In this document: piece by piece, positions 2-3,648 of the stretch
Numbering within the stretch: the first letter of the stretch is position 1
Layout of the letters: each line of letters opens with the position of its first letter
Assembly (NCBI RefSeq): GCF_013343215.1
Contig: NZ_CP039144.1
Location: forward strand, 331,495-395,494
DNA length: 64,000 bases
Direction of reading: 5' to 3'
DNA from: Acinetobacter sp. 10FS3-1
GTDB lineage: Bacteria > Pseudomonadota > Gammaproteobacteria > Pseudomonadales > Moraxellaceae
Translations under genes and position numbers: made by a program
Notes under the pieces: model-generated
The model's database searches: none
What the model was told of the DNA's origin: nothing
Seen by the model: only the letters and a program-made list of their open reading frames with translations

Positions 2-235
2 GAAAGAGGTCTAACACTTTCTGGTGGTGAACGACAAAGAATATCAATTGCAAGAGCTTTATATGAATCACCTCTATTTCTTTTATTAGATGAAGCAAGT
101 TCCAGTCTAGATGAGGATACAGAAGCAGATATAATGGATAATCTAAGAAAAATTAGCAATGAAACAAATATTATAGCAATTACACATAATTTAAATCTTA
201 TAAACAGCCAAGATAATGTAGTAAAGTTAAATTAA
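2..235 (+). CDS. Lasso-peptide ABC exporter, C-terminal end (McjD-like), truncated by window start
   Basis: The visible 77 residues are the end of an ABC ATPase domain. They show the signature LSGGERQR, a Walker B stretch LFLLLDEASSSLD, and the switch histidine in AITH. It lies directly upstream of a lasso precursor, cyclase and protease gene, so it is most likely the McjD-type exporter that pumps out the mature peptide and gives self-immunity. The membrane domain lies outside the window, so substrate assignment rests only on context. There is no promoter-free read-through into the next gene: a separate promoter lies at 303-331. Confidence 0.8.
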   Translation, partial: ERGLTLSGGERQRISIARALYESPLFLLLDEASSSLDEDTEADIMDNLRKISNETNIIAITHNLNLINSQDNVVKLN

Positions 236-302
236 CGTGTAATAATTTTTTACATTATTTAGTGTTGAAAATCAATAAGCTGCGATTACTGGTAATATTC
301 AC

Positions 303-331
303 TTGATCTTTATTTTTCCTGATGGTATAAA
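303..331 (+). promoter_or_regulatory. Sigma-70 type promoter of the lasso precursor gene
   Basis: TTGATC at 303-308 and TATAAA at 326-331 are separated by exactly 17 bases. The ribosome binding site AAGGA at 358-362 precedes the ATG at 370. This gives the precursor its own promoter, independent of the transporter gene. Confidence 0.6.
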
Positions 332-369
332 AAATATTCAATTTAATGTTTGTTTATAAGGAAATCACT

Positions 370-495
370 ATGAAAAAGTTTCTAAATATGATTAAACGTG
401 ACAAAAAACTAGCTTCTATTAAAGCAAGTAGTAATGTAAATGGTAAACCAGGCGGTTCAATTGTAGAAGGCAGCTTCTCAGTTTGGAAGCGATAA
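370..495 (+). CDS. Lasso peptide precursor (41 aa)
   Basis: This short gene encodes a 41-residue peptide, too short for usual ORF calling. A basic leader (residues 1-24) is followed by a probable core at Gly25: GKPGGSIVEGSFSVWKR. Gly1 and Glu9 of the core are correctly spaced for a nine-residue isopeptide ring. The eight-residue tail carries Phe and Trp that could act as steric locks. The leader has Val at position -2, where most lasso leaders have Thr. The start has a good RBS (AAGGA) and a promoter at 303-331. The next two genes encode the lasso cyclase and the leader peptidase, which makes the assignment strong. The exact ring and cleavage point are inference. Confidence 0.85.
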   Translation: MKKFLNMIKRDKKLASIKASSNVNGKPGGSIVEGSFSVWKR

Positions 496-516
496 TTAAT
501 AATTTCATTAAATGAT

Positions 517-555
517 AAATGTAGTACATTAAGCAATTAATGTACTACATTTTTT
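517..555 (+). terminator. Strong intrinsic terminator/attenuator between precursor and processing genes
   Basis: A near-perfect 16-bp stem closes on a GCAA tetraloop (533-536) and is followed by a short T run. It sits 22 bases after the precursor stop. It probably lets the precursor mRNA outnumber the cyclase and protease message. The ATG at 540 lies inside the right arm, which argues against it as the start of the next gene. Confidence 0.8.
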
Positions 556-569
556 GTAGAATATATAAA

Positions 570-1925
570 ATGTTAAAATCAATTACATTAGAAGATCTGG
601 AAAGCAATTCAAGTAATATTAATATATTTAATTTAAAATTATTAAGACTTGATAATTTAATAACTATTGAAAATCCATACAACTCCAATACTTTATATTT
701 TATTAATTTTGATTATCATGTAATAATAATTTCTGATTCTTTTTTTGAATTTGATGATTTTAAAATTGATATTAATGGAGTGGATGAGTCAATTTTAGAT
801 CACTTTAATTCAAATTCAGTTTTCTTTAAAAATTACCATACTTTAGCTCATGGTTTTAAAATTGTATTTGATTTAAATAATGGTAGCTATATTAAATCTA
901 GAATTAATAACAATTTATTAATAAGTAAAAACCCCGTGAAATGCCTTCACAATACTTTAAGGTATATTGAAAAGGATAATATAGCTGTTAGCTTCTCTGG
1001 AGGGTTAGACTCAACTATTCTTTTGTATTCTTTAAAAGATCTTTATCCAGATAAGAATATTGTTGCTTTTAATTGGTATAATAAAGGAACTTCAAATAAT
1101 GATTTATTTGAATCCAGAAAAATATGTAAAAAGTTAAATATTAAACTTATAGAAATAGAAATATCTCCAGAAATTTTATTCACTGATTTGGATATTAACA
1201 AACATTTTATACCTCCATATCCATCAACTTATATAAGTTATTTAGGTTTTATAGAAAAATATATCTCAATTCTTGATGATTATTTTAATGAACAACCGTT
1301 TACTATAGTTAATGGTCATGGGGGAGATCAAATATTTTATGAAGATATACCATTAGAAATATTTAGTTTGAAAAATATAATAAAATATAAATCAAAAATT
1401 AAGGATTATATTGAACTTTATTCCTTAAATTATTTTTCTTTTTTTAAAAGTATTGCTAATCGAAAATTCAATTTTAAAGAATATAAAGAGAAACTTATTA
1501 ATGATACATTGTATCAAACATCTACTACTTTTATTAAATTGCCTCAGCATATAAATTTTTTCTATCCTTTTACTTCAGAAGAGATGATTACGTGCATGGG
1601 AGATGTAGATATTTTTTATACATTCAATAATAAGTATTCCCGATATAATATTAGGAAATCCTTTTCAATTCATTATAATTCGAATGACTTTTATCGGATT
1701 AATAAAGGTCATATGACTGGTGCCTATCAGTATGCACTAAAGACTCATGAGGATAAAATTTTAAAAAGTATTAAAACTGGGAGGTTACAAGAATTAAAAA
1801 TTGTAGATCTGGATTTATTAATTGAAAAATTTAAATTAACTTCTATTGGAGTTAATGGGTTTGATCCGGTGTTATTTTATGTGATTAATTTTGAAAATAT
1901 TTTAAATGCTATTAAGGATGTTTAG
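570..1925 (+). CDS. Lasso cyclase, asparagine-synthetase-like (McjC-type)
   Basis: This enzyme adenylates the ring Asp/Glu side chain of the leader-free core and closes the isopeptide bond. The PP-loop SGGLDS (residues 143-148) binds ATP, and NGHGGDQIF (from residue 248) is the second asparagine-synthase-B motif. Length (451 aa) is a little under that of McjC. I chose ATG 570 because the upstream in-frame ATG at 540 lies in the terminator stem. The 3' end overlaps the next gene in the sequence ATGTTTAG, which suggests translational coupling. Base composition is extremely AT-rich compared with genes after 5 kb, a sign of separate origin. Confidence 0.88.
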   Translation: MLKSITLEDLESNSSNINIFNLKLLRLDNLITIENPYNSNTLYFINFDYHVIIISDSFFEFDDFKIDINGVDESILDHFNSNSVFFKNYHTLAHGFKIVFDLNNGSYIKSRINNNLLISKNPVKCLHNTLRYIEKDNIAVSFSGGLDSTILLYSLKDLYPDKNIVAFNWYNKGTSNNDLFESRKICKKLNIKLIEIEISPEILFTDLDINKHFIPPYPSTYISYLGFIEKYISILDDYFNEQPFTIVNGHGGDQIFYEDIPLEIFSLKNIIKYKSKIKDYIELYSLNYFSFFKSIANRKFNFKEYKEKLINDTLYQTSTTFIKLPQHINFFYPFTSEEMITCMGDVDIFYTFNNKYSRYNIRKSFSIHYNSNDFYRINKGHMTGAYQYALKTHEDKILKSIKTGRLQELKIVDLDLLIEKFKLTSIGVNGFDPVLFYVINFENILNAIKDV

Positions 1926-2595
1926 TTTGAAATATTATAAATTTAAAAAGGATTACTATCCTATAATTATTGAAGATGAATTAGTAGTTTTAGATATATG
2001 TTCTAACAATTTCTTCTTTTTTGATAAGAATGAGTCGTTAGAGATATTAAATATAACCAGTTCAGTACATCCTTTCATTCCAGATCATCTATCATTTTTC
2101 TTTGAAAAATCTAAGTTATCTTTAGAAATTATAGCTTTTGATGAAATTAATGGTATTGATAACTATAGCTGGTCTGACGTTAAGTTTTTTAGAAAAGACA
2201 CAAATCTAAAAATCAGTATTTATGACAAAAGTTTAATTATTTTTTTATATTTTGCTTTTCAAATAAATAAAAATAGTTTTTTTAAATATAAAATAAACTT
2301 ATTAAATTTCATAAAAAGATTTTTAGAAAAACCCTCAAGTATAAATATTAATTATGCTAACAGTGCTGCTAACTATATACATGATATTTCTAAATATCTG
2401 CCATTTAGATTAAAGTGTTTAGAATTTTCATTCATATTAACAGCCTTTTTATATCTTAAAAGAATTAATTGCACAATGCATATAGGAGTGCAAAAGTATG
2501 ATTTTTTATCCCACGCTTGGGTATCTATTGAAAATGATATTATAAGCGATTCTCCTCATCTTTCAGATAATTTAGCAATTATTTTGTCTATATAA
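1918..2595 (+). CDS. Lasso leader peptidase (McjB-type, transglutaminase-like fold)
   Basis: This cysteine protease removes the leader peptide. The C-terminal half carries the Cys-His-Asp triad: Cys167 (FRLKCLEF), His199 (SHAWVS) and Asp211. The gaps between them (32 and 12 residues) equal those I recall for McjB of microcin J25. The N-terminal 90 residues are the expected place for the leader-recognition (RRE-like) domain, as in fused proteobacterial B proteins. The start at 1918 overlaps the cyclase stop; an in-frame ATG at 1906 is the alternative. The order here is D-A-C-B, not the A-B-C-D of the mcj cluster. Confidence 0.85.
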   Translation: MFSLKYYKFKKDYYPIIIEDELVVLDICSNNFFFFDKNESLEILNITSSVHPFIPDHLSFFFEKSKLSLEIIAFDEINGIDNYSWSDVKFFRKDTNLKISIYDKSLIIFLYFAFQINKNSFFKYKINLLNFIKRFLEKPSSININYANSAANYIHDISKYLPFRLKCLEFSFILTAFLYLKRINCTMHIGVQKYDFLSHAWVSIENDIISDSPHLSDNLAIILSI

Positions 2596-2640: not shown

Positions 2641-2666
2641 AAAAAACCACTTTGCAGTGGTTTTTT
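2641..2666 (+). terminator. Intrinsic terminator of the lasso operon
   Basis: An 11-bp stem (ACCACT / AGTGGT core, A/T flanks) with loop TTGC and a T run lies 46 bases after the peptidase stop. A lone sequence matching the DnaA box TTATCCACA follows at 2734-2742, too isolated to call an origin. Confidence 0.8.
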
Positions 2667-2777: not shown

Positions 2778-3648
2778 GGCTTTGTTGAATAAACATTCAA
2801 AAGTTGATTTCTCCCCAATCCATTCAAATTTAAGTGACAACTTGGGTGTGAGGTCTACCTAATTCCGTAAATCTATTCAGAACTGCCACACGCGCATGAA
2901 TCTCATTGACTTGGCTTTGAAAATTTCTCGCACTGAGTTTATCCCCCAATAATTTGCTGCAATGCATCTTGGTTTCAACCAAACTTCGGCGATGATAGCC
3001 TGACCATTTTTTCCATAGAGTTCTGCCTAAATGTTTAACCGTTTGAAGTAACTCATTTCGTTCTATAAGTACTTGTGAATCACTGATATTATTTGTCGTA
3101 AGCTGAACAGCCCGTATTTGCAGTGTTTCAGCATCTATACCAATATGCAGTTTACGCCATTGCCGACGGTATTCAGGCTGATGTTTCTTACGCTTCCATT
3201 CGCCTTCACCTAAAAATTTTAAACCCGTAGAGTCGACGAGTAGGTGTAACCCATCACGACTTTTTTGATAGCTTATCGCAATATCAATATGCTTTTGTTG
3301 TCTACAGAGGGTAGAGTAATCTGGTGCTGTCCAATTCAGGCCACAGAGTTTAATCAGGCTTTGAGCAAAGCCTGTGACTATACGTAAAGAAAGACGGAAT
3401 AGAGATTTGATCATTAAACAGCATTGAATCGCTGTATCGGAATAAGTTTGATTTCGACCGTGCTTGCCTTGTGGTTGCGCATACCATTGGGTCTTAGGAT
3501 CAAACCAGATTGAAATTTTTCCTCGCTTGATTAAAGCTTGGTTATACGAGGACCAATTAGTTGTACGGTAGATTTTAGGCGTGGGCTTATTCATTTGAGC
3601 ATTATATTGCTGAAGAAGCCCTTAGAGATAGGTTTGTGCAACAAAGCC
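2778..3648 (-). mobile_element. IS5-family insertion sequence, internal deletion derivative
   Basis: The ends are inverted repeats that begin GGCTTTGTTG on both sides (2778 reading right, 3648 reading left). The element is 871 bp. It encodes a single transposase on the minus strand with an in-frame internal deletion. I see no matching direct repeat in the bases flanking the two ends, so it probably did not arrive by simple insertion at this place, or one flank was later deleted. A related but distinct copy starts at 63828 in the opposite orientation. Confidence 0.85.
2830..3594 (-). pseudogene. IS5-family transposase with central deletion
   Basis: The N-terminus (MNKPTPKIYRTTNWSSYN) and the C-terminus with the catalytic Glu region (RSLVETKMHC) are intact. 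The first catalytic Asp is in LLVDSTGLKF. The segment that should carry the second catalytic Asp (the DGAYDT motif in intact relatives, from memory) is missing: DSQVL runs straight into ERNELLQTV. About 55 residues are lost in frame, which fits 254 aa against roughly 308 for the family. Lacking one member of the DDE triad, it should be inactive unless complemented in trans. Confidence 0.8.

Follow-up and report, generated by a model that had tools for sequence, protein, structure and literature searches.

We analyzed a 64,000-nucleotide stretch of Acinetobacter sp. 10FS3-1 (hereafter the window; bases 331495-395494 of the 395-kb contig C2), which carries at its left edge, on the + strand, a lasso peptide cluster. 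Its genes, in the order D-A-C-B, encode an ATP-binding cassette (ABC) exporter, a precursor, a cyclase and a leader peptidase; all four frames are open and the motifs are intact. We put a probability of about 0.8 on our best explanation, that this is an intact plasmid-borne cluster of a lasso branch with the gene order A-C-B and that its product most likely kills related Gram-negative bacteria. The predicted product belongs to a branch of lasso peptides with few descriptions and is unrecorded as far as the collections searched show; it falls within a known class and is not a new kind of system.

Precursor and modifying enzymes

An earlier reading of the same DNA made without database searches (the sequence-only reading) had described a 41-residue precursor with cyclase, peptidase and exporter genes. 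Our analysis confirmed this composition, with most of the 565-aa exporter gene lying outside the window, and also the assignment to lasso peptides. B matched the NF033537 model with 60.9 bits (cut-off 33) and is a B2 peptidase with a Cys-His-Asp triad (Cys164/His196/Asp208) that was invariant in 10 out of 10 alignment rows. C is an ATP-dependent cyclase resembling asparagine and beta-lactam synthetases, and the core starts with a residue, Gly25, that has an Asp or Glu at core position 7, 8 or 9 (Glu33, position 9).

After the 24-residue leader the core reads GKPGGSIVEGSFSVWKR. Glu33 is its sole Asp or Glu and only Gly25 sits 7-9 residues upstream of it, therefore the ring must join Gly1 and Glu9, as the sequence-only reading had it. 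Its choice of Gly25 as the first core residue agrees with the Asn-Gly junction, which falls at the same place in 6 out of 6 aligned family precursors, and its hand-calculated mass of about 1771.94 Da with the 1771.937 Da computed for the cyclized core (MH+ 1772.944). The claim that the core is unrecorded also held. A search of 5.77 billion clustered proteins with the precursor returned one match from one candidate, the cluster itself; such a search depends on shared five-residue words and on a predicted protein, so absence there is not proof. The core was not found in open PMC full text, and no record of the cores of the branch was seen in the open-licence literature, a body judged in part by title and start of abstract and taken without its supplementary tables. 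In the searches made, the precursor was found in this plasmid lineage alone.

The same DNA is found on plasmid pB18-1 (Acinetobacter indicus B18, pigeon stool) with 1 mismatch in 16,000 bases, the sole difference being Ala/Thr at exporter residue 203. The pB18-1 annotation labels the cyclase '7-cyano-7-deazaguanine synthase' and the precursor 'hypothetical protein', therefore such clusters are readily missed.

Relatives form an A-C-B branch

A cyclase search with the proteins of the window and of Acinetobacter sp. WCHAc010034 (G103) as queries, which scored just the 7,995 candidates with the most shared words, gave 17 proteins at E up to 0.001. These were the window's own cyclase, one weak match that is not a relative (P0018) and 15 relatives, the G103 cyclase included, 38-67% identical to that of the window. 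The sources named were A. nosocomialis, A. baumannii, A. oleivorans, A. gyllenbergii, A. calcoaceticus, Acinetobacter sp. WCHAc010034 and Oligella urethralis (67%). Such a cyclase occurred in 2 out of 175 genomes of the genus and any lasso B2 gene in 4 out of 175, the own genome included in both counts. More distant cyclases were found on 32 plasmid records (25 Escherichia, 4 Pantoea, 1 Salmonella, 1 Rhizobium and 1 Acinetobacter, the latter being pB18-1).

The 42-aa precursor of G103, in an A-C-B arrangement, has a leader ending in SNIN followed by GRGVGPIIEVRLGVYKFN. Outside Acinetobacter, precursors were read in five loci (L034, L037, L035, L040 and L036): the E. coli plasmid precursor has STN before GTGGGSIIEGSYTVYRCDGGSVPSRPFGPPFCP, with a near-identical one in Salmonella, two Pantoea plasmids share ATN before GNGSGSLVEGRRRVYRCSSSSGIGFSVC, and Rhizobium has FTN before GQGGGAIVEGSYAVYRDLTGPGDDDWCGEGYFVPWCPNTW. 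The invariant columns of the six-row precursor alignment include Asn24, Gly25, Gly29, Glu33 and Val38. The cores, of which that of the window is the shortest, follow the common pattern of a Gxxx-G[SAP][IL][IV]E ring, then usually G...V[YW][RK]. Each family locus whose precursor was read has the order A-C-B and not A-B-C-D. By core signature, gene order and the placement of C and B in one branch, the window cluster is a member of this A-C-B branch. The core is also less isolated than it had looked, with clear relatives.

The window precursor was also recovered with a profile (A8) built from the E. coli, Salmonella, Pantoea and Rhizobium precursors only. In a six-frame scan of the 175 genomes it was the best match (E 8.3e-7, 31 bits; next 18.7 bits), and 50 out of 175 genomes had some match at E up to 1. 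When 5,426 complete genomes were searched, 27 had the E. coli version of the cluster, 24 of them covering at least 80% of the query, and 28 out of 28 places were on plasmids. Some E. coli copies are interrupted (by IS5 in NZ_CP103975.1) or have the cyclase in pieces or incomplete. Because of these broken copies and of the Salmonella exporter (L037), which is split over two overlapping frames, the data suggest that the cluster is frequently lost.

An exporter from another branch

The window exporter is 49% identical to that of an A. soli cluster and 46% identical to that of a Cupriavidus cluster, both of the microcin J25 (MccJ25) or J25 type, versus 23% to that of G103. In the exporter tree it grouped with these two and with two Rhizobium exporters (100/100). 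Its position inside the J25-type branch is unsure (82/83); the robust part of the tree is the split from the A-C-B family's own exporters (100/99). The C and B trees, in contrast, placed the window in the A-C-B branch, split from the J25-type rows with 100/99 and 97/97. These trees, of 10-13 rows each, are long-branched and uneven in composition and leave out the exporters of acinetodin and MccJ25 themselves, and a label test on the exporter tree is insufficient alone to force two origins. Because C and B lie in the A-C-B branch but the exporter in the J25-type branch, the cluster is best read as a mosaic, in which the exporter appears to have been taken from a cluster of the MccJ25/acinetodin type.

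The place of the exporter gene also varies: it follows B in E. coli, Salmonella, Pantoea and Rhizobium, is divergent in G103 and lies upstream of A in the window. MacA/MacB-like genes are also present in G103 and the two Pantoea plasmids, but for G103 and L040 the scores against the MacA and MacB models fall short of the equivalog cut-offs.

A perfect 21-bp hairpin lies at the Walker A codons of this exporter, a little to the left of the window (L003:9164-9209, C2:331164-331209; RNA fold z -8.68), and also in pB18-1. It exceeds the longest perfect hairpin (loop 3-12) found in the 64-kb window, which has 17 bp; it may have a regulatory function or be the scar of a template switch. In Rhizobium sp. 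NLR16a an exporter related to that of the window precedes an asparagine-synthase-like gene, a phosphotransferase and a GNAT acetyltransferase (L052:4758-9602). These genes may belong to a modified lasso-type cluster, although the stretch read showed no B gene.

Leader position -2 and the hairpin after A

Position -2 of the leader, assigned by alignment and not by a measured cut, is Val23 in the window, Ile in G103 and Thr in 4 out of 4 non-Acinetobacter precursors of the six-row alignment. The window precursor thus lacks Thr at -2, a usual but non-defining lasso trait that is present in every lasso peptide aligned in a review (PMC6784204). PMC10368454 reports Ile/Val(-2) precursors from Bradymonadales, Acidobacteriaceae and Sphingomonadales, describes an Ile(-2) precursor of Bradymonas that is cut by its own B2 enzyme, and cites further predicted Ile/Val/Ala(-2) precursors from Kretsch et al. 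2023.

The hairpin between A and C folds with z -4.95, a stability reached by 0 out of 200 shuffled sequences, and was recovered in a second hairpin analysis. Hairpins after A were also seen in G103 (17 bp, unrelated sequence, z -7.34), in Pantoea L035 (z -4.48) and in the J25-type cluster of A. soli (L007, z -6.68). According to PMC7549694, lasso peptide yields have been increased by taking out a hairpin or by altering the structure between the genes. The hairpin of the window is likely an attenuator favoring precursor over enzymes: it would probably end most transcripts and so leave more precursor than enzyme.

Location and neighboring genes

Horizontal acquisition of the cluster is likely because of its low G+C content (0.238 in window bases 1-2600 versus 0.379 over the whole window) and the adjoining IS5-family transposase gene (Table 1).

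Table 1. Features of the lasso cluster and its surroundings, in window positions.
Feature	Position	Strand	Remarks
Gene D, 3' end, ABC exporter	2..235	+	Full gene 565 aa, L003:8032-9729 = contig C2:330032-331729
AAGGAA, ribosome-binding-site-like, 6 nt 5' of precursor ATG	358..363	+	Direct reading
Gene A, 41-aa lasso precursor, stop codon included	370..495	+	WP_257234942.1 in pB18-1
Leader peptide, residues 1-24, end Asn-Val-Asn (Val at -2)	370..441	+	By alignment; predicted cut
Core peptide, 17 residues, ring Gly1-Glu9, tail GSFSVWKR	442..492	+	
Perfect 16-bp hairpin then T, between A and C, probable attenuating terminator	517..552	+	RNA fold z -4.95
Gene C, lasso cyclase (macrolactam synthetase), 451 aa, SGGLDS motif	570..1925	+	
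Gene B, leader peptidase, 222 aa, lasso B2 domain at residues 135-221	1927..2595	+	
Terminator-like inverted repeat 3' of B	2641..2666	+	Direct reading; absent from the list of the hairpin scan
IS5-family transposase, neighbor outside the pathway	2830..3594	-	NCBIfam transpos_IS5_2, 309 bits

The left flank (L003:3600-8030) matched 329 plasmid records, 327 of them from Acinetobacter, at 659 places. Of the 11 rows listed in addition to pB18-1, 8 matched best in L003:3656-4085, about 430 bp with HicB-like antitoxin genes, and the other 3 in about 360 bp of the same segment. Beside the G103 lasso cluster a 1764-aa protein is encoded (L008:3655-8949, - strand), for which PADLOC gave matches to DUF626_VIII and PDC-M54A and which is possibly an anti-phage NTPase. 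Another lasso-type cluster of Acinetobacter (genome G132, L014:4329-9968) starts with a candidate precursor of 55 aa, strongly acidic in its C-terminal part, which is followed by B, C, D and a protein of 388 aa; the cluster falls on neither the A-C-B nor the J25-type branch.

Proposed mechanism and alternatives

From the genes, motifs, core family and exporter mismatch seen in the sequence we infer cutting, cyclization, threading, export, immunity and killing. Peptidase B would bind the leader and cut after Asn24, and cyclase C would use ATP to activate Glu9 and bond it to the Gly1 amino group, so closing the ring around a tail that has already folded. The product would be a nine-residue ring threaded by an eight-residue tail, with Phe12 and Trp15 as possible plugs, and exporter D would pump it out and probably confer immunity on the producer. 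The peptide is probably a weapon against related bacteria; killing of relatives is, we infer, the default reading for exporter-bearing plasmid lasso clusters.

Several points weigh against this explanation. Few independent copies of the cluster are known. The G103 precursor scored 17.8 bits with the A8 profile, no better than background, therefore its tie to the family depends on the neighboring C and B. The exporter differs in kind from those of the family and hence may be a misfit with this product, and B may fail to cut a leader that has Val and not the customary Thr at -2. The closest solved structure to the cyclase profile by sequence was QueC, and global template modeling scores (Foldseek) of the cyclase against synthetases were just 0.43-0.53. 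A recognition element of ribosomally synthesized and post-translationally modified peptides was sought in the N-terminal part of B, and the first 100 residues of 7 B proteins, including the known acinetodin B, gave 0 Pfam matches. A single-sequence structure model of B was unusable (predicted local distance difference test 36.6), and the E. coli relative has no clear hairpin after A (fold z -1.65).

The sequence-only reading had found no resemblance to the RNA-polymerase-inhibiting MccJ25/acinetodin group. This stood for ring size, C terminus and the branch of cyclase and peptidase, but not for the exporter, nor for the latter half of the ring, where Gly-[Ser/Pro]-Ile-x-Glu aligns with acinetodin-type cores. 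A nine-residue ring is also that of capistruin. Capistruin, outside the MccJ25/acinetodin group, is also an RNA polymerase inhibitor according to PMC6784204, and because of this precedent, the shared half ring and the exporter grouping the inference against RNA polymerase is weak. We regard as unlikely an action like that of MccJ25 and acinetodin, with uptake by a siderophore receptor, a block of the RNA polymerase secondary channel and a nine-residue ring that would be their pharmacophore enlarged by one inserted residue. The window core and three J25-type cores do have the half ring Gly-[Ser/Pro]-[Ile/Val/Leu]-x-Glu in common, and the exporter groups with those of two J25-type clusters. In the window, however, the ring Glu is followed by Gly10 and not by an aromatic residue, the ring is larger, the Tyr-Gly end is missing and the enzymes belong to a different branch. 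None of the three J25-type cores has an equivalent of the conserved Val-[Tyr/Trp]-[Arg/Lys] tail motif.

Similarly improbable is a lasso peptide with a non-antibacterial role, for instance as a signal or a metal or nutrient scavenger. Many lasso peptides have no known function, and the annotation of the 26.7 kb surrounding the cluster in pB18-1 lists 31 features, many of them 'hypothetical' and none labeled as a receptor or as a separate gene for immunity. Against this role, the clusters carry exporters, like antibacterial lasso clusters, and two family plasmids have bacteriocin-like neighbors: the E. coli cluster is closely preceded by a gene for colicin E1 family microcin immunity (L034:2775-3134), and a contact-dependent inhibition immunity gene lies near the Pantoea cluster L035. 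More doubtful still is a non-producing mosaic, in which the exporter would be the remnant of a lost J25-type cluster and the A-C-B genes silent through Val(-2) or low expression: exporter and enzymes do lie in different branches and PMC10368454 (section 24) describes a lasso cluster, with a residue other than Thr at -2, that was silent in the laboratory, but the four frames are open with intact motifs, the sequence is near-unchanged between two plasmids, and Ile(-2), also present in G103, is cut in Bradymonas.

Comparison with known systems

The A-C-B branch offers a natural experiment in which a related ring and loop are combined with varying tails and exporters. Thr versus Val/Ile at -2 without an annotated kinase bears on the choice of cut by B enzymes, the differing exporters bear on how exporters recognize lasso peptides, and a compact 17-residue peptide with a predicted mass is an easily testable product. 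Tentatively, and at somewhat less than even odds, A-C-B clusters would constitute a lasso family of their own, mostly plasmid-borne and present in Gamma- and Alphaproteobacteria. In this family the conserved ring and loop (Gxxx-G[SAP][IL][IV]E) would be the functional part and act on a different target from MccJ25, and tail and exporter would be exchangeable. The Acinetobacter lineage would have shed the long Cys-bearing tail, altered the -2 residue and, here, taken a J25-type exporter.

The window precursor shares a non-Thr -2 residue with the Ile/Val(-2) lasso peptides of PMC10368454. In that paper every Ile/Val(-2) cluster unveiled by its authors has a kinase or phosphotransferase, whereas no kinase is annotated among the 31 pB18-1 features, many of them 'hypothetical'; Acinetobacter precursors with Ile or Val at -2, a single-chain B and no kinase would widen this pattern.

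Acinetodin is to our knowledge the one characterized lasso peptide of Acinetobacter. Its cluster and the J25-type clusters of A. soli and Cupriavidus (L013, L007 and L053) are like that of the window in the half ring G-P-x-x-E; the A. soli and Cupriavidus exporters resemble that of the window, the acinetodin exporter being outside this comparison, and A. soli also has a hairpin after A. They differ in an eight-residue ring starting with Gly-Gly and a Tyr-Gly end (nine residues and Trp-Lys-Arg in the window), in Thr at -2, in the order A-B-C and in the branch of C and B.

The plasmid clusters of E. coli and Salmonella, Pantoea agglomerans and Rhizobium leguminosarum share with the window the A-C-B order and the signature GxGxG[SA][IL][IV]EG...VYR. 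Unlike the window, they have Thr at -2, longer tails with two Cys in the precursors read, a C protein about 25-30% identical and an exporter 3' of B that is of a different branch from that of the window. The G103 cluster (L005/L008) differs in its core and in Ile at -2, in C (40% identical) and B (50%), in its location on a 3.6-Mb contig and in its own divergent exporter with MacA/MacB-like genes, but is like that of the window in the Asn-Gly junction, the nine-residue Gly-Glu ring, the gene order, the near-equal lengths of C and B and the hairpin after A.
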